Assembly (NCBI RefSeq): GCF_029255185.1
Contig: NZ_JAPUVO010000079.1
Coordinates: forward strand, 1 to 34,975
From: Propionivibrio sp.
GTDB taxonomy: Bacteria > Pseudomonadota > Gammaproteobacteria > Burkholderiales > Rhodocyclaceae
DNA length: 34,975 bases
Reading direction: 5' to 3'
The position numbers were made by a program, and so were the translations under genes. Positions within the stretch are counted from its first letter, which is position 1. Every line of letters starts with the position of its first letter. The notes under the pieces are model-generated. The model saw nothing but the letters and a program-made list of their open reading frames with translations, had not been told where the DNA came from and did not search any database. Below are positions 1,417 through 19,731 of this stretch, in pieces.

Positions 1417-1419
1417 ATT

Positions 1420-3111: not shown

Positions 3112-3122
3112 GGAGTACGGTA

Positions 3123-4181: not shown

Positions 4182-4362
4182 AGGCGGCGAGGCGAATTCC
4201 GGGGTTTTGATGTCACATTTTTAGTGATGCGTAATAAAGTGAAAGTGCAGCGTGACGCCGGATACGTCGCGCTGTTTTTCAAGCGTTTGCGGCTTAAAGC
4301 GTGCAAGTATTGGCTTGGCTCTTAGTGCCTTTTTGTCTGTGGGAAGGGGTTGGTTTCGGCCA

Positions 4363-5676: not shown

Positions 5677-5770
5677 CTGAGACTTCTAGCGGTTTCATAA
5701 GCCTCGGTCTGTAGCGGCTGGAGGCTGACACGAACTGTGTCGGGGTCAGAATTTTGACAAGGGACAAACG

Positions 5771-7471
5771 GTGCGATTTAGATCAGGATGGTCATTCGGA
5801 AAACCTCCAGTGCTTTTCGCATTTTTGGCGATCTATCTACTGACATTTCTCGTACTGCCCGTTGGCACTATGATTCTTCAGGGCCTCACCAATAATGAGG
5901 GGAAATTTGTAGCGGATCACATCAAGCTCTTGCTTGCAAATCCGGTATATGTGGAGAGTCTGCTAAATAGCCTGGGCGTTGCTGCTGGAGCGGCCGTTCT
6001 GTCGGCTGTTGCAGCGCTTCCAATCGCCATGGTTCTCTGGCGATACCATGTTCGCCCGTCGGTTTTCATCGAGTTATGCGGTTTCCTGCCCTTGTTTGTG
6101 CCACCATTTGTTCTCGCCCTCTCACTGCAAATTTTTTTCGGCAGGGGCGGGGCGCTGGGCATGTTGTTTCAGTCGTACTGCGATTTGGATCCTGCAATTT
6201 TGGGCTTGCCAAGCGTAATGTTGATTGAGGCGATGCATTATTTTCCGTTGGTATTGATGACCCTGACCATGACAACCAGCGCCTATAACCAGCAGGCTAA
6301 AGAAGCGGCCAGTCTGGGGAGCGGTTGGTTCCGTTTGATGACTCGGGTTTTTCTACCGCTAGGCATGCCTGGACTGGCGTTCGGCATGTCAATTACTTTT
6401 CTCAAAACATTGGACGATCTGGCGACGCCGCTTTCGCTTGGTGTTACAAATTTGCTCGCGCCGCAAGCTTTTCTCAGGGTATCAGCCTATGGTTCCCAGG
6501 ATCCTCTCTCCTCGCTGATCGCGACCCTAATGGTTGTAATCTCAGGGCTTGCCTGGTTTGCATCGATTCGCTTCGTCCGACAGCATGTGGCTTTTCGGAA
6601 TGCATCTTCCGTGAGTGCGTCTGTATTACTTTCTAAACAACAGATGATCGTGGGCATTACGTTTCTCGGCGGCATATTGATGCTTTACGCCACCGCTTAC
6701 GCTGGGGTGGCCCTGACCTCGATTGCCCGGATCTGGAGCTATACCCTTTTGCCAGAGTCGTATGTCCTAAGTCATTACCTGACGGCCATACATTCTGAAC
6801 GAGGTAGTTTTATCAACACGCTGGCCTATTGTGGATTTGCTGCTGTGCTCGATGTCGTTGTCGGTTTGGTGATGGCGTATGCGATTGACTGTGCCCCCCC
6901 CGTCTGGAAGAGATGGCTCACGTGGGGAGCGACCGGACTGTTGAGTGTGCCGGGCGTGGCATTGGCGATTGCCTATCTACAGTTTTTCCGTGGAATTGAA
7001 GTGCCACTCATCAATCAAGCGATTGACGCAAGCTGGTTTCTACTCCCCATGGCCTTCTCCGTGCGAGGTTTACCTTTCGCGATTCGAGCTTGTAGTATCA
7101 CCCTTCAGGGCATCCCCGCCAGTTACGTGGAAGCGGCAAACATCTCAGGCCGCAACCGCTTCAGAATCTTTATAAAAATTGTTCTGCCGATGATGACTGT
7201 CGGTCTGTTTGTTGCATTCTTGCTCTGCTTTGGTTTGGCAGCGGTTGATCTTTCGTCGGCAATGCTCCTCATCCCTAGCGAAACCAATGCACCGGTCAGT
7301 TACAGCATCTATTTGAATATGCAATCGACAACAGGAAGAGGCGCTGGGTCGGCGCTGGCTATTTTGTCCATTGCTCTCGTTACCCTATCCTTGTTTACAC
7401 TTTTAGTTCTGATTCGCCGAGATTGGAAAACGGTATCCAGTTTCAGAAAATTCGTCTTCACGGGAAGCTAA
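5771..7471 (+). CDS. ABC transporter permease, fused double-domain (cluster B)
   Basis: A 566-residue polytopic inner-membrane protein with two permease domains. The EAA loops are KEAASLGSGW near residue 176 and VEAANISGRN near 452, each followed by a LP(L/M) motif. It starts with GTG, preceded by AAGGGA. It is homologous in layout to the permease at 1420-3111, but the sequence differs enough that this is not a recent duplication. A 94-bp gap separates it from the binding-protein gene and 18 bp separate it from the ATPase start, so it is the transmembrane part of cluster B. The substrate is unknown. Confidence 0.91.
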   Translation: MRFRSGWSFGKPPVLFAFLAIYLLTFLVLPVGTMILQGLTNNEGKFVADHIKLLLANPVYVESLLNSLGVAAGAAVLSAVAALPIAMVLWRYHVRPSVFIELCGFLPLFVPPFVLALSLQIFFGRGGALGMLFQSYCDLDPAILGLPSVMLIEAMHYFPLVLMTLTMTTSAYNQQAKEAASLGSGWFRLMTRVFLPLGMPGLAFGMSITFLKTLDDLATPLSLGVTNLLAPQAFLRVSAYGSQDPLSSLIATLMVVISGLAWFASIRFVRQHVAFRNASSVSASVLLSKQQMIVGITFLGGILMLYATAYAGVALTSIARIWSYTLLPESYVLSHYLTAIHSERGSFINTLAYCGFAAVLDVVVGLVMAYAIDCAPPVWKRWLTWGATGLLSVPGVALAIAYLQFFRGIEVPLINQAIDASWFLLPMAFSVRGLPFAIRACSITLQGIPASYVEAANISGRNRFRIFIKIVLPMMTVGLFVAFLLCFGLAAVDLSSAMLLIPSETNAPVSYSIYLNMQSTTGRGAGSALAILSIALVTLSLFTLLVLIRRDWKTVSSFRKFVFTGS

Positions 7472-7489
7472 ACGGTAGTGAGATGTGAA

Positions 7490-8608
7490 ATGAACAGAGT
7501 AACGATTGAAGTTCGCAATCTTGATTTTTCCTACGGTGCAAAGCCTGTGCTGCGTAACATTAATCTTTGCATTGAGGCCGGGGAGTTGTTTGCGGTGTTA
7601 GGGCCGTCAGGCTCTGGAAAAACAACATTGCTTCGACTGCTCGCCGGTCTTGAACGACCTTCGGCGGGGTCTATTCGAATCAATAAAACGGATGTGTTTG
7701 ACATACCTCCCGCACAGAGGGATGTCGGCATGGTTTTCCAGAATTTTTCCCTCTGGCCCCATATGTCAGTATTCGAAAATGTGGCATTCGGCGTCGCTGA
7801 ACACCACAGAAACGGAACTGAGCTGGAAAAGCGAGTAGATAAAATTCTTAAAATGCTCGATATTGCTGAGACCCGCGATTTTCGCCCCGACTGTTTGTCG
7901 GTCGGGCAGCAACAACGGGTGGCGTTGGCTCGCGCACTGGTTAGCGAGCCCCGGCTGTTGCTCCTTGATGATCCGTTTTCCAATCTTGAGTACGAGCTTA
8001 GGGTGCAGATGCGTCATGATTTGTATTTGCTACAGCGCAAACTAGGCATTACTTCGATCCTGGTCACGCATGACCAGGAGGATGCGCTGAGTATCGCGGA
8101 TCGCGTTGCAGTGGTGGCTCATGGCACCATACAGCAAGTCGGCACCCCGGCGGCCATTTACGATTTCCCCAACTCGATGGAAGTTGCACGGTTCGTTGGC
8201 GTTACCAACTTTCTTCCGGGAAACGTGAAGCACATAGAAAGCCAACTCATTGAATTTTTTTCACACGACATCGGGCATCATCGTTGGCCGATCTCACGTG
8301 ATGCGCCATCGGAAGGGCCGTCAGTACTGAGCATTCGGCCACATGCTCTTCATATCGCTCCGATTGATAGTTTTCGCGACGGAAGATACCTGTGGCTGGA
8401 GGGAACAATCAGGAGCAGCGAGTTCCTTGGGGAGGTGGTGCGCTATCAGATTGACATCGGGTCGGTCAGTATCAGCGTCAACCAGGCACATTTCACTTGC
8501 TCTTCCGTTACGCCGTCTGGAACACCCGTGCTTGTCGGATTTGACCCATCCCGGTCGCGGCTTTTCCCTGTGTCTGCGGAGATGTCATCAGTCTCTGTGT
8601 ACGACTAA
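7490..8608 (+). CDS. ABC transporter ATP-binding protein with altered catalytic motifs (cluster B)
   Basis: A 372-residue ATPase from ATG 7490; an in-frame GTG at 7478 would add four residues and cannot be excluded. Walker A is normal (GPSGSGKT), as are the Q-loop (FQNFSLWPHMSVFEN) and H-loop (VTHDQEDALSIADR). Three conserved positions depart from the family: the signature is LSVGQ instead of LSGGQ, Walker B is LLLLDDP so the catalytic Glu is Asp, and the D-loop is SNLE instead of SxLD. Such changes in related ATPases slow or abolish hydrolysis at the site they build. A C-terminal TOBE-like region follows. It belongs with the permease just upstream. Confidence 0.9.
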   Translation: MNRVTIEVRNLDFSYGAKPVLRNINLCIEAGELFAVLGPSGSGKTTLLRLLAGLERPSAGSIRINKTDVFDIPPAQRDVGMVFQNFSLWPHMSVFENVAFGVAEHHRNGTELEKRVDKILKMLDIAETRDFRPDCLSVGQQQRVALARALVSEPRLLLLDDPFSNLEYELRVQMRHDLYLLQRKLGITSILVTHDQEDALSIADRVAVVAHGTIQQVGTPAAIYDFPNSMEVARFVGVTNFLPGNVKHIESQLIEFFSHDIGHHRWPISRDAPSEGPSVLSIRPHALHIAPIDSFRDGRYLWLEGTIRSSEFLGEVVRYQIDIGSVSISVNQAHFTCSSVTPSGTPVLVGFDPSRSRLFPVSAEMSSVSVYD

Positions 8609-8613
8609 GTCGA

Positions 8614-9516
8614 ATGGATATTCTCAAGCTTCGCTCGTTTGTCATGGTTGCTCGACTAGGCCATCTGACGCGTGCTGCGGAGCGCCTATTTCTTACCCAA
8701 CCTGCGGTTACACAGCATATCAAGGCGATTGAGCAGGAAATTGGGATTACATTGTTCGATCGTGCGCCGGGGAGGATCACGCTGACCCGGTCCGGAGAAA
8801 TTCTTCTTGCTGAAGCAGAGCATGTTTTGTCCGTCTTCGAGGGATTTGCAAGAAAGGCAAAGCAAATCAAGGGGGAAGTTACCGGAAGCATTCTGATTGC
8901 GACTATTGATGACTCAGACTTTATCAAGCTAGGTGGGCTGCTTTATGGCTTACGTGCGTCGCTACCCCTCCTGCAAATAAAAACCCGGCTTGTACTAGCT
9001 GATGACGTTGTGAACGGAATCAAGAATGGAATGTTTGACGCCGGCTTTTACATCGGGTCAATCGATCATCCTGATTTTGTCATGCAGCCTTTGCGAACGA
9101 TTACGTATTGCACGGTGGGTCCGGCGGATTACGGAAAACAGTTGGCAAAGGCTGGCTGGAGAGAGGTTGCAGAACTGCCCTGGATTGCAGCACCCGAGCG
9201 TTCTCACGTGTCACGGCTGCTGCGTTTGCTTTTTGCGCAGCAGGGTGTATTGCCCAACGAAGTCGTTGAATGTGACCAACTTCCATCAATGCTCGATTTG
9301 GTTCGTTCCGGTCTAGGCATGGGCTTGGTGAGGGAAGATCTCGCCCTGATTGCTGCGGAGAAGGGAGAGGTGGCGATCTGGCCTCATGGAAGCATCGAGA
9401 GCAATTTATCGTTCGTTTTCAGGCTATCTGAGGAACATGACCCCGCCATTGTCGGCATGCTTTCCGTATTGCGCGACCACTGGCAGATCCAGGGATGTAC
9501 TGCCGGTGAAACCTAA
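8614..9516 (+). CDS. LysR-family transcriptional regulator
   Basis: A 300-residue LysR-type regulator. The N-terminal winged helix is clear: MDILKLRSFVMVARLGHLTRAAERLFLTQPAVTQHIKAIEQEIG, ending in LFDRAPGRITLTRSGE. The remaining ~200 residues form the periplasmic-binding-protein-like effector domain. It starts 5 bp after the ATPase stop on the same strand, so it is probably cotranscribed with cluster B and may control it. This is unusual, because LysR genes more often stand divergent from their target. Its effector is unknown and I see no clear T-N11-A operator upstream of 4363. Confidence 0.93.
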   Translation: MDILKLRSFVMVARLGHLTRAAERLFLTQPAVTQHIKAIEQEIGITLFDRAPGRITLTRSGEILLAEAEHVLSVFEGFARKAKQIKGEVTGSILIATIDDSDFIKLGGLLYGLRASLPLLQIKTRLVLADDVVNGIKNGMFDAGFYIGSIDHPDFVMQPLRTITYCTVGPADYGKQLAKAGWREVAELPWIAAPERSHVSRLLRLLFAQQGVLPNEVVECDQLPSMLDLVRSGLGMGLVREDLALIAAEKGEVAIWPHGSIESNLSFVFRLSEEHDPAIVGMLSVLRDHWQIQGCTAGET

Positions 9517-9547
9517 CAGGACGGGCATCCCGGATGGTACGGACTAT

Positions 9548-9664
9548 TTAAATCGAATAGTCATAGTCGATGCTCAGCGGCGCATGGTCTGAAAACCACT
9601 CGCCTTTGTATACCGCTGCGCCGCGTACCGTAGCGGCCAACGCCGGGGTGGCCAATTGATAGTC
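9548..9664 (-). pseudogene. xth: Detached 3' end of the host exonuclease III gene (xth)
   Basis: Read on the minus strand this encodes DYQLATPALAATVRGAAV, then the conserved ...FSDHAPLSIDYDYSI ending in TAA at 9548-9550. That is the C-terminal 37-38 residues of an exonuclease III, including the Asp-His pair whose His is the general acid/base of the family. It has no start codon or 5' part here. It continues exactly in frame from the truncated gene at 19060-19731, which ends in ...GWRLD. The two pieces together give a normal 260-residue ExoIII. The split is caused by the inserted element (core at 9660-9664). Confidence 0.93.
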
Positions 9665-9680
9665 AATCATTCAAAATACC
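9640..9680. other. attL: left junction of the element
   Basis: Host xth sequence (GGCCAATTGA) meets TAGTC at 9660-9664 and then the element arm AATCATTCAAAATACC at 9665-9680. The arm is the mirror of the one at the right end (19042-19060). The stop and last five codons of the element's own xth lie inside this arm. The exact crossover within TAGTC cannot be fixed from one sequence. Confidence 0.88.
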
Positions 9681-10452
9681 TACATTCGTAATCTACGATT
9701 AGCGGTGCATGGTCGCTGAATTTTTCGACCTTGTAGATGCTGCTTTCCTTTGCAGCAGAAGCAATTTCAGCGGTTGCGACATGCAAATCTATCCGCCAAC
9801 CCACATTTTTGGCGTATGCGGCACCGCGATTGCTCCACCACGTATACCCCGCATCGCTCGCCTCTGGGTATAGCGTTCTATACACATCAACCCAGCCGCT
9901 TGCGTAGAGTTTGTCGAGCCATGCCCGCTCTTCTGGCAGGAATCCACTGTTTTTCAGATTGCCCTTCCAGTTCTTCAAATCGATAGGGGCGTGAGCAATG
10001 TTCCAATCACCACAAACAATGAATTGCCGTCCTTCGGCTCGTAGGGCATCCATGACGGGAAAAAATTCGTCCAAAAACTCAAATTTCGCCTCTTGTCGTT
10101 CAGGACTCGATGAACCTGACGGGACATAGACAGAAATGACTGAAAGGTCGCCGAAATCGGCTCTGATATATCGCCCTTCCGCATCAAACCCAGCGTGTCC
10201 GATGCCCTCAATGACCTTGTCAGGTTCACGGCGGCAGTAGATGCCGACGCCGGAATATCCCTTTTTTTCGGCGTAGTGGAAAAAGCCTCGGTAGCCTGCG
10301 GGATTTCGCATGTTGTCGGTGAGGTCTGCCGATTGGGCTTTGAGTTCCTGTACACAAACGACATCGGCGTTAGTCGTTGCCATCCACTCAAAGAAGCCTT
10401 TCGTTGTGGCTGACCTGATTCCGTTGAGGTTTGCGGAGATGATTCGAACCAT
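9667..10452 (-). CDS. xthA: Exonuclease III (element-borne replacement copy)
   Basis: A complete 261-residue exodeoxyribonuclease III / AP endonuclease, which cuts DNA 5' to abasic sites and degrades 3' ends in base excision repair. Family residues are in place: N-terminal NLNGIRSA, Glu36 in QELKAQ, GDWNIAH, the catalytic-region Asp in NVGWRID, and the terminal FSDHAPL with His248. It is clearly homologous to the interrupted host copy but not a recent duplicate. At the position matching the integration core it reads AAATC (plus strand 9785-9789) instead of TAGTC. The stop codon overlaps the attP arm. It is divergent from the methyltransferase gene, with a ~160-bp promoter region between them. 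Confidence 0.95.
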   Translation of the reverse strand: MVRIISANLNGIRSATTKGFFEWMATTNADVVCVQELKAQSADLTDNMRNPAGYRGFFHYAEKKGYSGVGIYCRREPDKVIEGIGHAGFDAEGRYIRADFGDLSVISVYVPSGSSSPERQEAKFEFLDEFFPVMDALRAEGRQFIVCGDWNIAHAPIDLKNWKGNLKNSGFLPEERAWLDKLYASGWVDVYRTLYPEASDAGYTWWSNRGAAYAKNVGWRIDLHVATAEIASAAKESSIYKVEKFSDHAPLIVDYECRYFE

Positions 10453-10613
10453 ATTGATTGATTGGGCTTACTGCAGCCAATTGCGGCTATCTATGCGTTA
10501 AATGAAGTGGTAAAGGGTATCACGGTAGGTGTCGATAAAGTCTCCCAAGGGGCGACTAATTGGCGTGCTTGAACTATCATTCGCCCTATACAAAACATAT
10601 GAGCGAGAGACCG

Positions 10614-11756
10614 ATGAATTTTTACGAGTTCTTCGCAGGCGGGGGCATGGCGAGGCTAGGTTTAGGCTCGGAGTGGCATTGCCTTTTTGCAAATGACATT
10701 GACGAACGCAAGGCTGAAACTTACCGCCGCAACTTCGATGATGCTAGTGAACTACACCTTGGCGATATCGCAGGCGTAAAAATCTCCGATTTGTCAGGAC
10801 GTGCCGACTTGGCTTGGGCATCTTTCCCTTGTCAGGATTTATCCCTTGCTGGGGCAGGTGCCGGATTAAAAGGTGAACGCTCAGGGATGTTCTGGGAGTT
10901 CTGGCGTCTTGTTCGCGGTCTGCGTGCCGAGAACCGCCAACCTCGCATTGTTATTCTCGAAAATGTTTATGGAGCCATCACATCCCACGGAGGGCATGAT
11001 TTAGCCGCGATTTGTAGTGCGTTTGCGGAAGACGGTTATCGTTACGCTCCTGTCGTAATTGATGCTTCTAGGTTCGTCCCACAGTCTCGCCCCCGACTTT
11101 TCATTATTGGTTTTGCAAATGGAGTTGAACCGCCTGCCGAATTGCTCCGCGATGCCCCTGTCTCTCAGTGGCATCCCGACGCCTTCGGAACTGCTTATGA
11201 CCTTCTCGACTCGGCTACCCGCGAGTGCTGGTTGTGGCTTGACCTTCCGATACCTGCCGAGCGAACCACGCGACTTGTCGACCTAATTGAAGACGAACCG
11301 ACAGGCGTTGAATGGCACACGGCGTTCGAAACGAAAAAACTGCTTTCCATGATGACTCCGATTAACGCCGACAAAGTAAAGGCGGCGAAAAAAACGAAGA
11401 CAAAACAGGTCGGAGCCATCTACAAGCGAACTCGTGCCGACGAAGATGGCGTTAAGCGTCAGCGTGCGGAAGTCCGCTTCGATGATGTTGCAGGCTGTTT
11501 GCGAACGCCCGCAGGCGGTTCCAGTCGTCAAATCATTCTCGTCGTCGAGGGGCAAAAGGTTCGTAGCCGTCTTCTGTCGCCAAGGGAGGCTGCGAGGCTC
11601 ATGGGTATTCCTGATTCATATGTTTTGCCTGCTCGCTACAATGATGCCTACCATTTGGCGGGTGATGGTGTAGCTGTCCCCGTTGTTTCATGGCTTGCAC
11701 GCCATGTCGTTGAGCCTGCCGTCGCTCCGAATGTCGTTCGTCGGGCGGTGGCGTAA
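10614..11756 (+). CDS. DNA (cytosine-5) methyltransferase
   Basis: About 380 residues from ATG 10614. ATG 10599 and TTG 10560 are in frame; I prefer 10614 because GAGAGA precedes it and motif I then starts at once. C5-methyltransferase motifs appear in order: I (FYEFFAGGGMARLGLG), IV with the catalytic Cys (SFPCQDLSLAG), VI (ENV), VIII (PQSRPRLFIIG), and IX/X near the C-terminus (LLSPREAARLMGIPDSY). It transfers methyl from S-adenosylmethionine to C5 of cytosine in an unknown target sequence. Its stop overlaps the start of the next gene by one base, and vsr follows, so it is the modification enzyme of a type II system. Confidence 0.93.
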   Translation: MNFYEFFAGGGMARLGLGSEWHCLFANDIDERKAETYRRNFDDASELHLGDIAGVKISDLSGRADLAWASFPCQDLSLAGAGAGLKGERSGMFWEFWRLVRGLRAENRQPRIVILENVYGAITSHGGHDLAAICSAFAEDGYRYAPVVIDASRFVPQSRPRLFIIGFANGVEPPAELLRDAPVSQWHPDAFGTAYDLLDSATRECWLWLDLPIPAERTTRLVDLIEDEPTGVEWHTAFETKKLLSMMTPINADKVKAAKKTKTKQVGAIYKRTRADEDGVKRQRAEVRFDDVAGCLRTPAGGSSRQIILVVEGQKVRSRLLSPREAARLMGIPDSYVLPARYNDAYHLAGDGVAVPVVSWLARHVVEPAVAPNVVRRAVA

Positions 11757-12640
11757 TGGCGACACGGCAACGAATCGATAAAACTAAATCCATCCCTTGT
11801 GGCATCTCGCCTGAGATGACGGCGAGAATCGAGGCATACGCTGAGGCGTTAGTAGCCGCAGCTCCCTCGATTGGCTCTCACGGTCTGACGAATGATGCAT
11901 TTTGGAAGGCTGGCATTTTCCGTTCAGCTGTTGAGAAGATTCGTGGGTCGAATGCCGCCTCAATGTCGGACAAAAAGGGGTTCATTGCCGATATGCTCGG
12001 CACGCTAAAACTGTCGGGGCGAATTACAGATTTTGATTTTACGGGAGCGGGCGACAGGCACGACTATCAGGTCGTTTTGAATGGAGGGAAAGTCTCCATC
12101 ATCGAGGCAAAAGGATGCCTCGATGGAAACAACACTACGGTTTACACGCGTCCCGCAAATGCCGACGAGTTTGTTATTTGGTCTCTGTGCCAAAATCCCG
12201 GAGCCGATCCAAAACACAATCTTTGGTCGGGCGTTCACACCCGCCTTGGTGGGAAAATCATTGCCGAGAAGGAACGCGTCGATGCCCTCATTGTCTGGGA
12301 CCAGCTTTGTGGGGGACCGGGGCGACCCTGTCCGAAATTGGCGACAGGGCGAGGCATAGAACTGAATGGGCAAAAGATTCCCCCTCCCTGCATCTACCTT
12401 TTTCCCCGAACCATTCCAGACCCTCGGAACAATACAGCTCCCGCCGTCTGGCAGTTGCATGAAGTAGGGCTTGCCTCCGCTCTGGTTGAAGAATTTGGCG
12501 GCAATGCAGACGATGTTACGGAAGTTCATATCGAAGCACGAATGAATGGTGCTAACGTTGAGCGGAAGACCACACTAAAACGCGGTGGTGCGGTAATCGT
12601 CGAATCGGGATGGACGGAGTTGAAGCGGGCATCCCGCTGA
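11756..12640 (+). CDS. Probable type II restriction endonuclease, PD-(D/E)XK-like
   Basis: A 294-residue protein that I do not recognise as a named family. It sits between a C5 methyltransferase and vsr, with one-base overlaps at both ends (translational coupling), which is where the cognate endonuclease is expected. Residues 103-119 show DYQVVL...VSIIEAKG, that is Asp-x13-Glu-x-Lys on consecutive predicted strands, a textbook PD-(D/E)XK nuclease core. The N-terminal ~90 residues look helical and may bind DNA. Alternatives are another nuclease or a modification-dependent enzyme. The function is inferred from context plus this motif; the recognition sequence is unknown. Confidence 0.68.
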   Translation: MATRQRIDKTKSIPCGISPEMTARIEAYAEALVAAAPSIGSHGLTNDAFWKAGIFRSAVEKIRGSNAASMSDKKGFIADMLGTLKLSGRITDFDFTGAGDRHDYQVVLNGGKVSIIEAKGCLDGNNTTVYTRPANADEFVIWSLCQNPGADPKHNLWSGVHTRLGGKIIAEKERVDALIVWDQLCGGPGRPCPKLATGRGIELNGQKIPPPCIYLFPRTIPDPRNNTAPAVWQLHEVGLASALVEEFGGNADDVTEVHIEARMNGANVERKTTLKRGGAVIVESGWTELKRASR

Positions 12641-13068
12641 TGTCAGATGTTTATGACGCGGCTACGAGAAGTCGCGTCATGCGGGCGGTAAAGTCGAAAG
12701 ACACTCGCCCAGAACGGACTGTTCGTTCCTTGCTGCATCTTCTTGGATTCCGCTTCCGTCTCCACCGCAAAGACTTGGCGGGAAAGCCGGACATTGTCCT
12801 GCCTCGTTATCGAACGGTAATTTTCGTTCACGGGTGCTTTTTTCATGGGCATAACTGCAAACGAGGGAGTCGAGAACCGAAGACAAACGTCGTTTACTGG
12901 CGTGAAAAACTCAGGCGGAATGTTGAGCGAGACCAGATAGTTTTCAATGAGCTTTCCGCCCAAAATTGGAAAGTCCTGACGGTCTGGGAGTGCGAACTAA
13001 AAGACCTCGAAGGATTAGGGCTGCGTCTTTCGAACGCAATCACCCTGACTCCGATGGACAAACCATAG
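12640..13068 (+). CDS. vsr: Very short patch repair endonuclease
   Basis: 142 residues from ATG 12640, which overlaps the upstream stop as TGATG; an in-frame upstream ATG at 12610 is less likely. Vsr nicks 5' of the T in T:G mismatches that arise when 5-methylcytosine deaminates. Hallmarks are the N-terminal TRSRVMRAVKSKDTRPE, the metal-binding Asp in KPDIVLP, and the zinc/active-site stretch VHGCFFHGHNC, followed by W(R)EKLRRNVERD. Its pairing with a C5 methyltransferase is the standard arrangement, since it limits C-to-T mutation at methylated sites. The length is normal. Confidence 0.95.
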   Translation: MSDVYDAATRSRVMRAVKSKDTRPERTVRSLLHLLGFRFRLHRKDLAGKPDIVLPRYRTVIFVHGCFFHGHNCKRGSREPKTNVVYWREKLRRNVERDQIVFNELSAQNWKVLTVWECELKDLEGLGLRLSNAITLTPMDKP

Positions 13069-13113
13069 AGCAGAGAACAGAAACGAGGGCTACAACGCCA
13101 ACAGCCTCCGCAT

Positions 13114-13139
13114 CAAAAAACAAAACCGCCCGAAGGCGG
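13114..13139 (-). terminator. Rho-independent terminator with UUCG loop
   Basis: On the minus strand the stem CCGCC, loop TTCG and stem GGCGG are followed directly by TTTTGTTTTTT. On the plus strand nothing T-rich follows, so it acts leftward. It would end the small RNA transcribed from about 13240 and any read-through from the relaxase gene. Confidence 0.85.
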
Positions 13140-13242
13140 CTCTGTCTGTCGTATGGAGACACCCCCACATAAGCGGGGAAGGTGGAGAAGTCTCCGATAT
13201 TTCTAAGTCGCCTGTGCGGCGAAAAACACTCCATACGACAGA
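13115..13242 (-). ncRNA. Candidate structured small RNA (~125 nt), unknown function
   Basis: On the minus strand, 13242-13229 (TCTGTCGTATGGAG) is perfectly complementary to 13158-13145, giving a 14-bp closing stem. Between the arms are three hairpins: TCGCC/GGCGA (13222-13208), GGAGA/TCTCC with a 2-nt loop (13195-13184) and CCCC/GGGG with an 8-nt loop (13178-13163). A promoter-like pair ends 5 nt upstream of the stem, and a UUCG terminator lies 5 nt beyond it. Promoter, closed multi-branch fold and terminator together predict a discrete transcript starting near 13239-13241. I do not recognise the family. It could also act as a folded single-stranded DNA element. Confidence 0.55.
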
Positions 13243-13246
13243 GATA

Positions 13247-13274
13247 ATTCTACATTTTTCGCATTGTTATTCAA
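13247..13274 (-). promoter_or_regulatory. Sigma-70-type promoter for the candidate small RNA
   Basis: On the minus strand, -35 TTGAAT (13274-13269), a 16-bp spacer, then -10 TAGAAT (13252-13247). Transcription would start about 13239-13241, at the first bases of the closing stem. Matches are 4/6 and 5/6 to consensus. Confidence 0.5.
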
Positions 13275-13308
13275 TGTGTATAAATCATTTGATTCGAGAA
13301 CCGTTCTC
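13275..13308. promoter_or_regulatory. DnaA-box match and palindrome upstream of the small-RNA promoter
   Basis: 13275-13283 reads TTATACACA on the minus strand, a full match to TTATNCACA, and abuts the -35 box. 13296-13308 is GAGAAC-C-GTTCTC, a perfect 6-bp inverted repeat around one base, of operator type. Either could regulate the small RNA or mark an origin of replication. A single 9-mer match can occur by chance. Confidence 0.35.
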
Positions 13309-13441
13309 AAATCCTTCGAATTCACAAGCTTCACAGGCTATTTCTAAAAAATAACGTATGAGATGAAGAAGCAACGGAAAGAAAAAGTTTTCCACTGTTG
13401 GTTGTGATACCCGTGAATGGACGAAAAACCAACCCTGCCTT

Positions 13442-14680
13442 TCACTTTCGGAGACGTGCACGAAGTGCAGCGGCTATGAAAGGGGAAGGAGCCGGAAGGC
13501 TTGCCTCTCCGCGTGTTTTGCCCTCTCCCTCCTTCTTGGATAACGCCAATTCATCATCCGTGGGCGTGTAGCCCTGAATCGCATCTGGCGGATATCCATG
13601 GCGAACTGCTGATTTCCAGAGATTCCGCCGGAATTCCTCGCCGCCTTGCACCTTGATGGATTTCCATCCTTTCAATTGAGCCAACTCGATGATGGTTTCC
13701 ACCTCATCCCGCATTCCCCCGAATTTCGGGGTAAGGCGGTCGCCGTGGTCGCGGACGCTCCCACCGTTGACGCGGATATCCAATGCCTGATTTTTGCCGT
13801 CGTAGTGCATGGAATGCAGGCGTTGCCCGAAATGGGTTCTGACCTTCGCTTGATAGCTGCTGTCCTGTGGCAATGCCTGAGCTGTTTCAAATGGATTTGC
13901 CGCCGTATGTATCGGCAACACGCAAGGGGTTGCTGGTTTTGTATTGCCGGGTTTGTTGTCCTGCTGTTTTCTGAATCCTTCCTCCATTTTTATCCCCCAT
14001 GATGAATTGATAGTCTGTTTGATGGCTTCACGCCGAGAGTTGGCTTTGGCGAACCTTGCCCGCCGATTTACCCCTTTGTGCCGTTCTGGCTGGCGGCTTA
14101 TTCCTTGGTCAATCAACCGCCGATGGTCGATGCGTGAACGGTGCCCTGACTTCGCCAAGGCTCGGTTGCAATGGCTTGCCCACGCTTCCCGCCATCCTTC
14201 AAGCATGGTCTTGTCGTTCCATTCACGAATTTTCTTGCCGAAACCATCAGCGTTCAATTCCCGCATGGTCAGGAGTAAGTGGACATGGGGATTGCCGATG
14301 TTGTCGTGAACGGCGATGTCGGCAACCATGCCCCGCTTCACAAATTGCGATTCAACAAATTCCGCAATCAGGGCGAGGCGTTCAAGGTGCGACAGTTCCA
14401 GGGGCAATGAAATTTCAACCTCTCTCGCCAACTGAGCATCCCCCCGCTTTTCTGCCGCTTCAACCGCATTCCACAACTTGGCTCGGTCGAGTGCCCACGC
14501 GGGAGCATCGTCGGGAGCGGCAATCGCCCGCCACCCGACATGCTGACGACGGGTGTAATCGAAGACCAGACCGGAACGAGTGTCTTTGATTTTGATTCCG
14601 GCTCGATACGCGGCGGCGGCTGTCGCCGTTCGCCCTGTGCTTCTGCCGATAATTTTTGTGCTGAGGTGGTAAATCGCCAT
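13442..14680 (-). CDS. mobA: MobA/MobL-type (MobQ) relaxase with C-terminal LPD7-like domain
   Basis: 412 residues from ATG 14680, which has a strong AAGGAG five bases upstream; the longer in-frame ORF to 14728 runs into oriT. The relaxase nicks oriT, stays bound to the 5' end and leads the strand into the recipient. MobQ features: MAIYHLSTKIIGRS, Tyr25 in AAAAYRAG (the position of the nucleophile in RSF1010 MobA), REVEISLPLEL, and the metal-binding NPHVHLLLTMR (His132, His134). After a variable region, about residues 300-390 (KFGGMRDEVETIIELA ... GWKSIKVQGGEEFRR) match the LPD7 domain found in relaxases and other mobile-element proteins. No primase domain is present, unlike RSF1010 MobA. It is divergent from the TraD-like gene, with oriT between them. 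Confidence 0.93.
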   Translation of the reverse strand: MAIYHLSTKIIGRSTGRTATAAAAYRAGIKIKDTRSGLVFDYTRRQHVGWRAIAAPDDAPAWALDRAKLWNAVEAAEKRGDAQLAREVEISLPLELSHLERLALIAEFVESQFVKRGMVADIAVHDNIGNPHVHLLLTMRELNADGFGKKIREWNDKTMLEGWREAWASHCNRALAKSGHRSRIDHRRLIDQGISRQPERHKGVNRRARFAKANSRREAIKQTINSSWGIKMEEGFRKQQDNKPGNTKPATPCVLPIHTAANPFETAQALPQDSSYQAKVRTHFGQRLHSMHYDGKNQALDIRVNGGSVRDHGDRLTPKFGGMRDEVETIIELAQLKGWKSIKVQGGEEFRRNLWKSAVRHGYPPDAIQGYTPTDDELALSKKEGEGKTRGEASLPAPSPFIAAALRARLRK

Positions 14681-14724
14681 TGCTCTCCTTGCCTTCCTCG
14701 CAATCGGTCGAGATTGCGACGCAC

Positions 14725-14755
14725 ACATTCCCTTGGGAATGTATAAGTGCGCCCT
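14725..14755 (+). other. oriT: oriT with RSF1010/MobQ-type nic site
   Basis: ACATTCCC-TT-GGGAATGT (14725-14742) is a perfect 8-bp hairpin. One base later comes TAAGTGCGCCCT (14744-14755), the core nic sequence of RSF1010-family oriTs, which is cut between G and C (here 14751/14752) by analogy. Hairpin-then-nic on the same strand is the arrangement MobQ relaxases recognise. It lies 45 bp upstream of the relaxase start. Transfer would lead with the TraD-like, helicase and integrase side. Confidence 0.9.
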
Positions 14756-14866
14756 TGCGGGGTTCTGGTCTGCTTGTGTTGTTGATTCCGGTCCGCTATC
14801 TCTATTCCTTTAATCCGGCATGCCGAGCAAAGCAACCGCTGGACGACAAACGGAGGAAATCAAGCA

Positions 14867-15187
14867 ATGGGAAATGTGCACGAGCAAATCAGCAGGCTGC
14901 TGGCGAAACGTGCCGAACTGGACGCACGTCTGGCAACGGCTCGTTCAACCGCAACAAGGCAGGAACGTAGAGACGAAACACGACGGAAAATTATTGCCGG
15001 TGCGATGGTGCTAAAACAGCACAGCGGAGACTGGCGAAGGGTTGGCGACCAACTACGATTAGAAAAGATGTTGGAACCCCGAGACTATGCCCTGTTCTAC
15101 GGGGTGAATTCTCCGAGTAGCCAGCAGGCGGAGGATAAGCCCGCTGATTGGCGTGAGCTCATTCGACCGTCGAGCGACAACGCTTGA
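14867..15187 (+). CDS. TraD/MobC-like relaxosome accessory protein
   Basis: 106 residues, starting with ATG after GGAGGA. The segment RRDETRRKIIAGAMVLKQ (about 34-51) matches the conserved core of the small TraD proteins of Agrobacterium Ti plasmids and related MobQ systems, 'RK.dTRrKIL.Ga..L'. The N-terminal 30 residues are charged and probably coiled-coil. Divergent placement across oriT from a MobQ relaxase supports a role in opening or recognising oriT. Its last ~30 bp overlap a minus-strand small ORF. Confidence 0.8.
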   Translation: MGNVHEQISRLLAKRAELDARLATARSTATRQERRDETRRKIIAGAMVLKQHSGDWRRVGDQLRLEKMLEPRDYALFYGVNSPSSQQAEDKPADWRELIRPSSDNA

Positions 15188-15383
15188 TTGTGTTCGGAGT
15201 TTGCGGGGGCAGCAGGCAGAAACAAGATTTTTCGTTGCCCCCGTTGCTCTCGCATAGCATGTAGGCGGCTTGCCACTGTGCCGCCGCCGATTCGTTGTCG
15301 AAGGTGAGGATAGTGCCAAGTTCGCAATGCTCGATGAAGACCCGACCGCTTTCGTCCACGCCTGTTCTGAATTTTTCCATCAT
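15159..15383 (-). CDS. Small hypothetical protein, antisense overlap with traD-like gene
   Basis: A 74-residue ORF starting with tandem ATGs (15383 or 15380) after GAGGGGGC, a good ribosome-binding site. The sequence MMEKFRTGVDESGRVFIEHCELGTILTFDN reads like a compact beta-strand-rich protein, and three Cys occur near the C-terminal half (LCESN, CFCLLPP). No family is recognised. It overlaps the end of the TraD-like gene by 29 bp, tail to tail. It may be real, but nothing beyond the start signal supports translation. Confidence 0.45.
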   Translation of the reverse strand: MMEKFRTGVDESGRVFIEHCELGTILTFDNESAAAQWQAAYMLCESNGGNEKSCFCLLPPQTPNTIKRCRSTVE

Positions 15384-15946
15384 GCCCCCTCTGGTGTTTG
15401 GCTGATTCAACCTCGCACCCACCACAGGAAAATTCAAGCCCGACGACGAAGAACCAAAAGCAGTTGACTTTTGAGCGGCGACCCGGAGAATATTCACTCG
15501 TTATTTCGGTTTTCTACACGGTTGTAGACAGTCTGGGGTCAGACGTAGAAATTCGAAGGCTTGAACACTAAATCTATGGTGCCACGCCCGAGGCTTACTC
15601 GGGATAAACGATTGTCTCTCTTGCAGAGGCGGCAATCGAGGGAGTGCAAGACCCACATCTGCTCGGCGGAATTGCCTAACGGCTTTTCCATATGAGCATA
15701 TTTTCTGGGGTTGCACCATGCACCAAACCAAATCGGCATTTCACAAAATTTATTGCCTTACGCATTGTGCTGATGGGCACGCGTTCGCACGCCAAATCAC
15801 GACCCCAGAAAGCTAAAACCCAGCAAGGCGGGCTCCTTGCCGGGTTTCTGGTGTGCTTTGATGAACGTCGGACAACGTCAGATTAGCACTCCATGAGCTT
15901 CAGTCAAGGGTTCGGCACGCCTTGCTTCGTTGAAAGGAAACGAAGC
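15384..15946. other. 563-bp region without confident genes, rich in hairpins
   Basis: Several short ORFs exist but none has a good start signal. 15511-15551: TTTCTAC/GTAGAAA encloses GTCTG-GGGT-CAGAC. 15587-15603: CCCGAG-GCTTA-CTCGGG. 15609-15638: CGATTG/CAATCG encloses CTCT-TGC-AGAG. CTGGGGT occurs at 15534-15540 and 15705-15711 and inverted at 15802-15808. The helicase gene follows directly, so this is a candidate helicase-linked origin or leader RNA. No promoter stood out. Confidence 0.5.
15816..15847 (+). repeat. Long hairpin upstream of the helicase gene
   Basis: AAACCC-A-GCAAGG (15816-15828) pairs with CCTTGC-C-GGGTTT (15835-15847) around a 6-nt loop, leaving a single mismatch. It lies about 100 bp before the preferred helicase start. 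It may be an attenuator or terminator, though only a weak T-run (TTTCTGG) follows. Confidence 0.5.
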
Positions 15947-17383
15947 ATGAAGAAATCTCATAACGAGCAAAGTATTGAGTCCAAATTTGGCGAAGAACTC
16001 GGCGGCAGTGTTGACTGGGCTGTTTCCGGAGGGGTTTTTTTCCACTGGGAAGGCAGCTTCTGGCAAGCACGGGTTATCGAAAGGACAGAGGAAACCGAGG
16101 ACGCCGAAGGCGTCGAGGTTATGAAGAGTGTTGCATATAAGTGGCTGAAAGCAAATTATCCAGCAGAAGCGAGCGACCGTAAGTCGAATGAGCTTATCAA
16201 GACGGCAATGCTTGATTGCCGCCGACTTCCCAAAGCTGGCAATCGGAACATTGTTCCGACTAATGGCTGCTATCTCGAAATCTGCCCAGATGGAAAAATT
16301 CAGGCTTTGCAACCAGAGCGTGAATTGGGCATCACCCATCTGGTAAATGCTGACATTGGCATTCATCAAGGAGTTTACACGCCGCGAGATTTGCCAAGCG
16401 ACAGCCTCTTCTATCACTTCCTGAATAGCTCTCTCCCGCAGCCGGAGGTTCGTGAAATTGTGCAGGAGTATGTTGGCTACACTTTGATTTCTTCAACGAA
16501 ATTTCAGGTCGGGCAACTTTGGCTTGGTGAAGGACGAAACGGCAAAAGCGTTTTGCTCGAAATTGTCCAGGCACTTCATGCCAAAACAGCAAGCATGAGC
16601 CTGAATCGCCTAACCGATTTTTATCTGCAACCGCTGGTCGGTGCATCACTTGCCTGCGTAAGCGAGGTGCCAAAAACCGGCGTTGACGGTGAGATGTTCA
16701 AATCTCTGATTGCGGGAGATTTGATTTCGGTTAACCGAAAACACAAGGATGTAATGGGCTACAAGCCAACAGCAAAGTGGCTGATGGCAGCCAATAATCT
16801 AATGAAGACTAACGACCATTCAGACGGTTGGTGGCGAAGGCTGCAAATTATTCCTTGGTCAGTTCAGATTCCTGATAACCAACTTATTCCAGACCTCGCT
16901 GAAATGGTATGTGCGAAGGAATTGAATCTGGTGCTCGACTGGGCATTGCAAGGCGTTAGTCGCTTGCTCAAAAGAGGGCTATTTGATGTGTCTTCGACTT
17001 TGCTGACTACAACTAGACAGGAAGCCATCGAGGCATCAAATCCTGTTGCTGCTTGGCTTGCAGAAATCGAGCCTGTATCGCATCAAATTGGAATGCCAAA
17101 AAATGACGTATTCATCGCGTTCCGCAAATGGGCTGATGATAATAACTATCGCTGCCCTGAGAAAAACGTTTTCTGGCAAGAAATGCGACGTGTTCTGAAA
17201 AATCGTTTCGAAATCGACAAGCGATATCAGAGGCAGCATTGCGGACAGAGTGTCGATTACGTCCGTTTCGCGTTTGGTGATGCCTTGCGGAATCTGGAAG
17301 CACCTTGGGATGACGACGAAACGCCAGCGACTGAGTTTATTCAGCCGAGAACCAAGCCAATCCAGCTCGGGGCAAGGTTTTGA
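15947..17383 (+). CDS. P4-type SF3 helicase (D5_N / phage-plasmid primase C-terminal family)
   Basis: 478 residues from ATG 15947, which follows AAAGGAAACG; ATG 15893 is in frame but has no such site. The N-terminal ~170 residues resemble a D5_N region. Then come Walker A GEGRNGKS (194-201), a Walker B-like region ASLACVSEVP, and motif C KWLMAANNLMKTNDHSDGWWRR with the arginine finger, typical of the P4 alpha C-terminal helicase. I see no zinc finger or primase catalytic motif, so it is a helicase without primase. It would unwind the excised circle for replication or stabilisation. It converges with the integrase gene. Confidence 0.88.
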   Translation: MKKSHNEQSIESKFGEELGGSVDWAVSGGVFFHWEGSFWQARVIERTEETEDAEGVEVMKSVAYKWLKANYPAEASDRKSNELIKTAMLDCRRLPKAGNRNIVPTNGCYLEICPDGKIQALQPERELGITHLVNADIGIHQGVYTPRDLPSDSLFYHFLNSSLPQPEVREIVQEYVGYTLISSTKFQVGQLWLGEGRNGKSVLLEIVQALHAKTASMSLNRLTDFYLQPLVGASLACVSEVPKTGVDGEMFKSLIAGDLISVNRKHKDVMGYKPTAKWLMAANNLMKTNDHSDGWWRRLQIIPWSVQIPDNQLIPDLAEMVCAKELNLVLDWALQGVSRLLKRGLFDVSSTLLTTTRQEAIEASNPVAAWLAEIEPVSHQIGMPKNDVFIAFRKWADDNNYRCPEKNVFWQEMRRVLKNRFEIDKRYQRQHCGQSVDYVRFAFGDALRNLEAPWDDDETPATEFIQPRTKPIQLGARF

Positions 17384-17394
17384 TTGATTGTTAG

Positions 17395-17418
17395 AAAGCG
17401 GGGGCAACCCCGCCTTTT
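17395..17418. terminator. Bidirectional terminator between helicase and integrase genes
   Basis: GCGGGG-GCAA-CCCCGC (17398-17413) has a GNRA loop. AAA precedes it and CTTTTC follows, so both strands give stem plus T-run. It fits the 41-bp gap between convergent genes. Confidence 0.8.
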
Positions 17419-17424
17419 CAAAAT

Positions 17425-19026
17425 TTACGTCGCTTTTTTCTTTGCCGCAATTTCTTCCCTGCTCATGCCTGCATCTTTTCTTCTCGCTCGTCCGAGAAAC
17501 TCGCGGGGGATGTTCTGAGCAATTCCGACACCTGAGACTTGATAAATCATCACTGCATCGTCGTGAAATTCGATGCGCTTGATGACCCTTCGAAGAGCGT
17601 CCGACAACTTGAATCGCTCCTCGGTTTTCGATTTGTCGCCAATCCAAATGAGAGCGTTGTCGACAAGATTGTCGCCAAAACAACCGCCAATTTTAGGCAC
17701 GGTTGCCAATTCCTCTCGTGCTGCTTCGAGTTCAGATTTTGCCTTGTCGGCTTCCGCTTCAATAGCTACTAGTCGCTGTAAGAGCAAGGTCGAATTCCCA
17801 CACTCTTCAATCGCCAAGATGATTCTATCCGCTCTGCTTGTTGCATCCGCTGCACGTTCTTCTGCGATGTTGATTCGTTCACGGATGGCTTCCGAGATTG
17901 CATCGTCCCTGAACGCATCTTCTTCAAAACGTCCGAGATTCGACAACACCGTGTTGACGATGGCGAGTTCTGATATCGATAGACATTTCGACCGTCCCGC
18001 TTTGCTCCCTATGCAGTAATAGCGAGAGTTGCCCCGAGTGGTTGGGGCTTTCCGTTCCATCCGTTCACCACATTTGCAGTAGAACAATCCGGCGAAAACG
18101 TCGGCGTTGATTCCTCTGAGCCGTTTCGGTCCTGTCCTGCCTTTCAACGCGACTTGCACACGGTGCCAAAGCTCTTCCGGCACTGCTGCTGGAAAATAAT
18201 TCTGAACGGGGTCGCCGTCAGGGGTCAGAGTGCCTTCAACCATTCGCATAGGTTGCCATTCGCCAAGGACTCGCCTGTCCCGTAGCAATCGGGAAATGCC
18301 TGTGTGTTCCCAGCCTTTGGTGTTTGTTCGTTGTCGCCACGGCATCGCCCATCCTTCTTCCGTTGCGATTCTGGCGATGGCAACGCCACCAAGCCCACTT
18401 GCAGCATGTTCAAAAACTTGGCGCACGGATTCCGCCTTGTCGGGGATGAGTTCCCAGCCTGATTTGTCTGCTTTCGGTTGCATCCAACCGCTACCGTGCA
18501 TTTTCGAAACGACTGGAAGCCCCGCTTGTCGTTTGGTTTGGAAAGCGGCAGATACGCGTTTAGCCTTCGTGCTGCTCTCTTCATGGGCTCGGGAGAAGAG
18601 CAGAACGGACAACATGAACGACACCGTTTCCTTAATCGTCTCGCTGTTCCATTCCTTGTTGTCGACCATCGATACAACACGGACACCCTTTTTGACGATT
18701 TTCGTCAGGAGGTCAACGGCTTCGGGCAGGGTCGCTCGCGAGAGTCGGTCTAGCGATTCGACTAGAAGAATCGAGCCTTTTGGAACTTTTCCCGCCTCGA
18801 TGGCTGCCATGAACGCACCAAGAGCCCCATAATTGGCATTGTCGCCTTTGAAAGCAGAGACCCCAAGGTCGGACAAAGAAAGTGATTCGTCGAGAACAAG
18901 CCCATGTTCATTGCACCATACTTGTGCAAGCCGTGTTTGGCGTTCGAGAGAAGTGCCTCTTGCTTGTCTTCCCGATGAGAAGCGACGGTATGAGAATACG
19001 CGGGTGCTTTGGGTATCTGGATTCAT
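17425..19026 (-). CDS. Large serine recombinase (integrase of the element)
   Basis: 533 residues. The resolvase-type catalytic domain begins YRRFSSGRQARGTSLERQ, with Ser17 at the nucleophile position, and has ESLDRLSRA near residue 90. A Recombinase domain follows (about 165-290), then a zinc ribbon (YCKCGERM ... YYCIGSKAGRSKC) and a helical, probably coiled-coil segment (about 385-450). This order is that of phiC31/TP901-type integrases, which join attP and attB at a 2-bp crossover without host factors. It starts 34 bp inside the right end of the element, pointing inward, as integrase genes usually do. It most likely made the xth insertion. No recombination directionality factor was identified. 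Confidence 0.95.
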   Translation of the reverse strand: MNPDTQSTRVFSYRRFSSGRQARGTSLERQTRLAQVWCNEHGLVLDESLSLSDLGVSAFKGDNANYGALGAFMAAIEAGKVPKGSILLVESLDRLSRATLPEAVDLLTKIVKKGVRVVSMVDNKEWNSETIKETVSFMLSVLLFSRAHEESSTKAKRVSAAFQTKRQAGLPVVSKMHGSGWMQPKADKSGWELIPDKAESVRQVFEHAASGLGGVAIARIATEEGWAMPWRQRTNTKGWEHTGISRLLRDRRVLGEWQPMRMVEGTLTPDGDPVQNYFPAAVPEELWHRVQVALKGRTGPKRLRGINADVFAGLFYCKCGERMERKAPTTRGNSRYYCIGSKAGRSKCLSISELAIVNTVLSNLGRFEEDAFRDDAISEAIRERINIAEERAADATSRADRIILAIEECGNSTLLLQRLVAIEAEADKAKSELEAAREELATVPKIGGCFGDNLVDNALIWIGDKSKTEERFKLSDALRRVIKRIEFHDDAVMIYQVSGVGIAQNIPREFLGRARRKDAGMSREEIAAKKKAT

Positions 19027-19041
19027 ACACCCAATTATGCA

Positions 19042-19078
19042 GGTATTTTGTGTGATTGACTAGTCGAGCCGCCAACCA
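19042..19078. other. attR: right junction of the element
   Basis: The element arm GGTATTTTGTGTGATTGAC (19042-19060) is followed by TAGTC (19061-19065) and host xth sequence GAGCCGCCAACC. The first bases of the core form the TAG stop of the truncated host reading frame. Joined to the left arm (9665-9680) it rebuilds a near-perfect palindrome. Confidence 0.88.
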
Positions 19079-19731
19079 ACGTTCTTGGCCCGGGCCTGAC
19101 CGCGATTGCTCCACCACGTGTAGCATTCGTCGGTCGCTGCCGGATGCAACTGGCGATAGACGTCAGTCCACCCGGCTTCGCTCAACACCCGGCCGACCCA
19201 GGCGCGCTCATCAGGGAGAAAGCCGGAATTCTTCCGGTTGCTTTTCCAATTCTTCAGATCGATTTCCTGATGGGCGATGTTCCAGTCGCCGCAGATCACC
19301 ACATCGCGCCCACTCTTTGCCAGTGCGAGAAGTTGGGGATAGAAAATGTCCATGAAGCGGAATTTGGCGGCCTGACGCTCCGGCGAACTCGAACCCGAAG
19401 GTAGGTAGAGCGAGACCACCGACAGATTGCCGAAGTCGGCGCGCAGATAGCGGCCTTCGGCGTCGAACTCGGTGTGGCCCGTGCCTTCGTGAATGGCGTC
19501 AGGCTTTTTCCGGCACCACAGGCCGACGCCGCTGTAGCCTTTCTTTTCGGCACAGTGGTAATAGGCATGCAGGCCGCCCGGCGCCTTCATTTCGTCAGTG
19601 AGATCGGCATGCTGAGCCTTTAGCTCCTGCAGGCAGACAATATCGGCGTTCTGCGCCGTCGTCCACGGCAAAACGCCTTTGCTCCATGCTGAACGAATAC
19701 CATTGAGGTTTAGTGTAATGATGCGTAACAT
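19060..19731 (-). pseudogene. xth: Host exonuclease III gene, truncated by the element
   Basis: 223 residues of a normal exonuclease III beginning MLRIITLNLNGIRSA, with Glu36 (QELKAQ) and GDWNIAH present. It ends abruptly at NVGWRLD, immediately followed by a TAG created at the attachment core. The missing 37 residues, including the catalytic SDHAPL motif, are at 9548-9661. Without that His the product should be inactive as a nuclease, though it may still be transcribed and could bind DNA. It is divergent from pyrE with 52 bp between starts. Confidence 0.93.

Follow-up and report, generated by a model that had tools for sequence, protein, structure and literature searches.

A serine-integrase element that interrupts the exonuclease III gene of its host and carries a whole second copy from another lineage

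The window considered here is a stretch of 34,975 nucleotides from Propionivibrio sp. (contig NZ_JAPUVO010000079.1 of assembly GCF_029255185.1), that is, one 35-kb contig of a 141-contig draft genome of 3.26 Mb. Within it, a 9.4-kb element of the serine-integrase type (9662-19060) lies inside the host's xth, the gene for exonuclease III. I propose, with a probability of roughly 0.8, that the element entered xth at the codons for the motif GWRxDY, that the host enzyme is truncated by the insertion, that a foreign, whole xth brought by the element takes over, and that excision restores the host gene. Some of this can be read off directly. Integration deprives exonuclease III of its C-terminal 37 residues, and the junction does not rebuild the host gene in the manner of elements that restore a 3' end: the 5' part runs into TAG. 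The element's complete xth, judged by its place in a gene tree, derives from another lineage. The features at issue are these:

9548-9661, minus strand: displaced 3' part of the native host xth, 37 codons (YQLATPAL...SIDYDYSI), carrying the SDH motif
9660-9691: attL, with core TA at 9660-9661 and an element arm that extends into the last codons of the xth copy
9667-10452, minus strand: complete element-borne xth copy, an exodeoxyribonuclease III of 261 aa, its stop codon 5 bp from the att core
17425-19026, minus strand: large serine integrase, 533 aa, with Resolvase and Recombinase domains above cut-off and Zn_ribbon_recom below cut-off
19031-19062: attR, with core TA at 19061-19062 and an element arm that matches the other arm as an inverted repeat at 24 of 32 positions including TA
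19060-19731, minus strand: 5' part of the native host xth, 223 codons with ...NVGWRLD at the end, followed by a TAG that the junction creates

The native gene is the broken one

The two host parts, 9.4 kb apart on the minus strand, meet in the motif GWR[LI]D-Y[QH], which bears out the initial annotation's description of a gene split into 223 and 37 codons that join in frame. In a collection of 81 xth sequences (a few of them the same genome under two handles), three stop at this junction and 78 read through it, with D-Y in 75, D-C in one, and D-L in two, the latter being the xth of genome G117 and the window's own element copy. Within the host genus, xth is present at 72% identity or more in 20 of 23 genomes; of the other three, two have no match, and in one the match is a distant paralogue. 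At 19 of these 20 loci the gene is a single open frame of 257-269 aa; the twentieth (L016) is missed by the junction motif, yet aligns over its full length. The host 5' part stands beside pyrE, and so does an intact xth in all seven relatives for which larger flanks are at hand. In the xth tree the split gene falls inside the host genus, the complete copy elsewhere. The intact frames of the genus and the pyrE neighborhood identify 19060-19731 as the native gene and the left-hand copy as not native. The initial annotation had allowed that the halves might fail to join in relatives with an empty site, or that the left-hand xth might be the native one. Neither is the case: the loci of the genus form one frame, and pyrE and the tree mark the split gene as native.

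The displaced tail carries an SDH motif, which holds a catalytic histidine of this enzyme family; the truncated host protein is without this tail and should be inactive. The element copy matches TIGR00633 (256 bits, cut-off 99) over residues 3-255 of its 261, and its best match among solved structures, 2jc5, aligns with residues 1-256, a full-length match by which it is assigned to the Xth family (exonuclease III, NExo-like). It occurs once in the genome, and the host 5' part is 64-65% identical to it. The claim that a complete, divergent xth sits at the left end of a 9.4-kb element therefore stands, the copy having 261 codons and being 65% identical to the host protein.

Attachment sites and orientation

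Read in the direction of xth, attR runs ...CGGCTCGACTA, then GTCAATCACACAAAATACC, and attL runs ...GGTATTTTGAATGATTGACTA, then TCAATTGG. The two have GACTA in common, with TA at the center of the inverted repeat. Over 32 arm positions, two of which are TA itself, the arms agree as an inverted repeat at 24 in the window, and at 23 and 19 in two related insertions described below, those of a Curvibacter genome and of genome G152. Among 100,000 random pairs, each starting with TA, agreement as good was reached at frequencies of 4e-5, 4e-5, and 3e-4, respectively. The putative attP would then be an inverted repeat centered on TA, one arm of it overlapped by the 3' end of the xth copy. Since TA stands at the center of the dyad, it is the likely crossover dinucleotide and position of cleavage. 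Synapsis of attP with attB by serine integrases is described as symmetric, with the central dinucleotide setting the orientation (PMC3783163). If TA is indeed the crossover, then a TA-centered inverted repeat means that integration should be possible in either direction.

From this anatomy, the integrase would recombine attP with an attB lying within the codons for GWRxDY, which are conserved in xth, and a site within conserved codons of an enzyme would open many possible hosts to it. While integrated, the element would supply the enzyme's role from its own xth, whichever way it faces. A whole gene serves both orientations, while a 3' fragment can rebuild its target in only one. Precise excision would restore the host xth. 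That the copy is active and of benefit I infer from the sequence; the initial annotation's notion of neutral presence and cost-free loss would fit the anatomy.

One might imagine that an element carrying its own target would recode the site to escape targeting itself. The copies give no sign of this: nucleotide differences in the nine attB codons are not above the background of the gene in any of the three element copies. The window copy lacks the TA core, as does its nearest relative, that of G117.

Other insertions at the same codon

The initial annotation suggested a search for other serine-integrase elements ending in xth, and two more have come to light. A scan of genome contigs gave a single relative, in a Curvibacter metagenome-assembled genome (JAFAMV010000042.1), with an integrase 52% identical to that of the window. 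Here the break in the host xth follows the codon at which the window's gene is cut, and about 25 kb away, at the far end, lie a complete xth of 266 aa and the displaced tail. The other is in G152, where a frameshifted 5' part of the host xth abuts a complete xth pointing at it, in the opposite direction, and where another contig holds a damaged integrase, a remnant about 2 kb from the start, adjoining an xth tail. This fits an element inserted in the opposite orientation, lying on two contigs with its middle unassembled. Its xth copy is intact, unlike its integrase and the host fragment, both of which are damaged. With G152 read across its two contigs, each of the three xth elements has its integrase at one end and its copy at the other, next to an attachment site, and a full copy is found in all three (3/3) whose two ends are visible.

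Could two xth genes simply have been misjoined in draft contigs? The window belongs to a 141-contig draft, the evidence from G152 is spread over two contigs, and the assemblies were judged without reads. However, the window and Curvibacter have both junctions at one and the same codon, with each pair contained in a single contig and furnished with inverted-repeat arms, and an assembly artefact is scarcely credible.

There is a fourth insertion in xth, in G803 (L143/L148, G803:C489), where the 5' part ends at the same codon and gives way to a Curvibacter-like arm. That arm agrees with the xth-end arm of Curvibacter at 23 of 32 positions and with the integrase-end arm at 21 of 32, which is not decisive for orientation. 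The first genes inside appear, by eye, to be a TetR regulator and a small multidrug-type transporter.

In 399 genomes of the order, the junction pattern found the window's own case only, the pattern missing G152 with its changed junction, and in 369 genomes of the class no integrase besides the window's was found at E<=1e-90. A second xth match at E<=1e-35 occurs in 8 of the 399 genomes of the order, including G000 and G152. Of the other six, three were examined and proved to be one 35% paralogue and two contig-end pieces; the rest (G028, G078, G123) belong to a single family. In G333 the apparent split in xth comes from a contig break, for its two pieces overlap and each ends at the end of a contig.

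The copies differ in origin

If an xth had been captured once and passed down with the element, the three element copies should group together. They do not. In a tree of 79 xth sequences (L120 and L139 were dropped for over-long frames), their positions require at least two changes on well-supported branches, and one origin was recovered in 0% of 200 bootstrap trees. The Curvibacter copy pairs with the xth of G808 (100/95), the G152 copy groups in a clade with xths from its own family (100/99), and the window copy pairs with that of G117 (100/98). The three thus stand apart in the tree, each next to xths from genomes without a known element of this kind. A single inherited lineage of element xth is contradicted by the tree, and because the copies do not group, they look to have been acquired separately.

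Different origins for the same cargo at the same place point to selection for having a copy. Constraint on the sequences can be gauged from the ratio of nonsynonymous to synonymous change (dN/dS) against nearest relatives, which comes to 0.10 in the copy from Curvibacter and 0.13 in that from G152. For the window copy, dS is saturated and dN is 0.22, and no ratio is given.

The same layout at other target genes

The existence of such a system would lead one to look for other genes treated in the same way. Related integrases were examined at 47 further loci, 16 from 300 genomes of the order and 31 of 33 places from 398 genomes of the phylum (the two left aside are G156, which is L070 and already counted, and G994). 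Five of the 47 show the layout with a whole copy (G152, G157, G320, G1096, G861), making 7 of 49 with the window and Curvibacter, at five target genes. The main claim of the initial annotation, a broken host gene and a separate copy of the whole of it in place of a new 3' end, is confirmed, and gains strength from two other xth elements and from elements at four other targets.

In G157 (L062, G157:C5, 1-1465 and about 9253-9445) the target is acr3, for arsenite efflux, with a full-length second acr3 inside the element and the tail at the integrase end. In G320 (L156/L061, G320:C3, near L156:18300-18560 and L061:11117-11340) a small CxxCxxCC gene is truncated and directly followed by a complete copy of 84 aa. 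In G1096 (L217, G1096:C8, about 900-2309 and beyond 16214) it is a radical SAM gene of the PA0069 type (498 bits, cut-off 360), where the host part ends ...PYKGCEHG, the full copy is 77.5% identical over 280 residues, and the tail begins CIYCYARPS... Finally, G861 (L200, G861:C1:2293900-2313800) has a BASS-like symporter as target (TIGR00841, 194 bits, below the cut-off of 326), with a host part ending ...GAMASNVIT, an inverted full copy, and a tail YLAGGAVAFS... By eye, L218 (G1129) seems to share the radical SAM target of G1096, at a contig end, and L206 (G922) the symporter target of G861, with less than 4 kb of element in reach. Two candidates were not counted as copies, a kinase-like paralogue at 41% in L195 and a match of 18 residues in L207.

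A quick integrase tree requires at least three changes on starred branches for the elements with a whole copy, with unresolved loci counted as lacking one and some long branches uncertain; a careful tree of 18 rows forces two. The label is also somewhat clustered on the integrase tree, 25 of 500 shuffles giving a value as low.

One might view the copies as passengers, gained by recombination near the insertion site, short-lived, and without benefit. They do lie at the ends of elements beside the attachment site, they were apparently acquired separately, and the acr3 copy of G157 has a broken frame. Nevertheless, mere passengers would not be expected to show dN/dS near 0.1, as two xth copies do, nor would the copy in G152 be expected to stay intact while the integrase and host fragment were damaged. 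The layout is seen, moreover, at five target genes and on scattered branches of the integrase tree (unresolved loci again counted as without a copy). I regard the passenger explanation as unlikely.

The element's other genes and the nature of its cargo

Besides integrase and xth, the element holds the following:

10605-11756, plus strand: C5-cytosine DNA methyltransferase, by profile match
11756-12640, plus strand: type II restriction enzyme, PDLC03501 at 290 bits, with no match in Pfam and NCBIfam
12640-13068, plus strand: Vsr mismatch endonuclease, by profile match
13442-14728, minus strand: MobA/MobL (MobQ) relaxase with an LPD7 domain, NF041496 at 255 bits, cut-off 200
15893-17383, plus strand: P4-family primase/helicase-like replication protein, TIGR01613 at 120 bits, DUF5906

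The integrase, which starts 34 bp from the core, matches Resolvase at 60.0 bits and Recombinase at 45.4 bits, and an integrase and a relaxase occurring together are the mark of an integrative and mobilizable element (IME). No mating-pair system was found among the element proteins scanned, which represent part of the frames, and no tRNA gene in the window. The element is integrative and probably mobilizable.

With a methyltransferase, a restriction enzyme, and Vsr on board, xth might be thought ordinary cargo, a repair function tied to these enzymes, its match to the target a coincidence. It is too much to ask of coincidence that three different elements in xth all carry xth, while those in acr3, the radical SAM gene, the CxxCxxCC gene, and the symporter gene carry just those genes. 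Furthermore, the nine Curvibacter element proteins scanned, among them RadC, a C5 methylase, a UvrD-like protein, GmrSD, Fic, DUF4391, an N6/N4 methylase, and a ResIII-type restriction protein, include no match to Vsr. The ordinary-cargo explanation is accordingly very unlikely, and the suggestion in the initial annotation that xth may serve the element's own vsr/methylation chemistry finds no support, since the Curvibacter element likewise bears xth at that place, with no Vsr match in those nine proteins.

Observations that do not favor replacement

Several observations weigh against a replaced target gene, in xth or elsewhere. The genomes of the window and of G152 each have also a distant xth-like gene (32% and 31%, respectively), so loss of xth may be tolerable and xth itself dispensable; no such gene is listed for the Curvibacter genome. 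In G803, no xth copy, tail, or integrase was found in the 2.4-Mb assembly. The host fragment in G152 (residues 37-222) still has a low dN/dS, 0.07 to 0.20, so its decay is recent or slight. A scan for consensus sigma-70 promoters at 9500-10700 gave none, against 1.4 expected.

Beyond xth, only 7 of 49 loci with related integrases have a whole copy, many others not being resolvable. The figure is a lower bound, for the tblastx test covered at most about 31 kb of element (less than 5 kb in 8 of the 31 phylum loci) and needs a detectable match to the tail. In G157, the frame of the acr3 copy is broken once, and all that is left of the host 5' part, at the left end of the contig, is a remnant with a stop, ending ...NFFEL. 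At radC (L060) and comM (L064, L067; both genes named by eye) the two halves of the target are visible and a motif search found no copy. The comM cases fit a large survey of serine recombinases in which competence genes and a magnesium-chelatase-type gene are described as enriched among targets (PMC10083194).

Other loci can be set beside these. Related integrases are found at genes that, by eye, resemble comM, comEC, and rimO (L064, L065, L066, L067, L069, L070, L075). In family f247 (L193, L194, L195, L196, L198, L202, L205, L213) they interrupt histidine-kinase genes at the H-box GTLVGGIAHDF, also judged by eye; tblastx found no copy at these kinase-type loci except the paralogue in L195, several of the contigs being short.

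Relation to known systems

The closest parallel is tRNA-dependent lysogeny (Guerrero-Bustamante and Hatfull 2024, PMC10865867), where, as described there, a host gene is likewise disrupted and not rebuilt, a whole copy from the element substituting for it. That system has tyrosine integrases, tRNA genes, and phages, and the need for the copy is proven by experiment. The present case, read from sequence, has a serine integrase, a protein gene, an IME-like element, and a presumed independence of orientation. By analogy it works like tRNA-dependent lysogeny without being a member, because a protein gene and a serine integrase are involved. Replacement of the whole target gene is best read as the protein-gene analogue.

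IMEs with serine recombinases (PMC5704250) share with the window a serine integrase, a relaxase, and a site within a coding gene. As that review presents them, sites at the 3' or 5' end leave the gene product (almost) unchanged, and internal sites disrupt the gene, serine recombinases hitting dispensable ones; the element in the window combines an internal site with a replacement for the whole gene. It seems an even question whether elements with serine integrases have repeatedly evolved a third way, in which a conserved internal site is used, the host gene is broken, and a whole replacement is independently acquired, so that insertion is tolerable in either orientation, important protein genes are opened as sites, and integration depends on the copy. 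Genomic islands that restore their target (PMC12884075; Islander, PMC4383910) also keep the target's function after integration, as is presumed here. There, by those accounts, sequence from the island rebuilds the target, whereas in the window the host gene is left in two pieces and a second gene would take its place. Helper-embedded phage-inducible chromosomal islands (PMC10111431) are different again, described as satellites in prophage late genes rather than serine-integrase elements in chromosomal genes. A literature search, with most subscription papers outside its reach, found no report of a whole protein gene replaced at an integrase site.

If the model is right, it extends tRNA-dependent lysogeny to protein genes and serine integrases, explains how an internal site can serve such integrases even in a gene that the host should not lose, and provides a route by which foreign copies replace housekeeping genes. 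A split gene with a full homologue in the same element is also a genomic signature by which new integrases may be found together with their attB sites.

Viral and plasmid sequences, and the left flank

A scan of viral contigs for the integrase found none, and five viral matches to the junction pattern look like chance, tblastn having matched neither xth nor any other protein of the element in the stretches covered. The integrase has matches in 21 plasmid records, none reaching 60% (the best-ranked at 29%), and the xth copy in 31, the best at 61.5%. In the window's left flank (319-9516), ABC-transporter genes and a LysR regulator can be named by eye from their translations. This region gave no match near xth in the seven relatives examined, and its G+C content is below that of the right flank.

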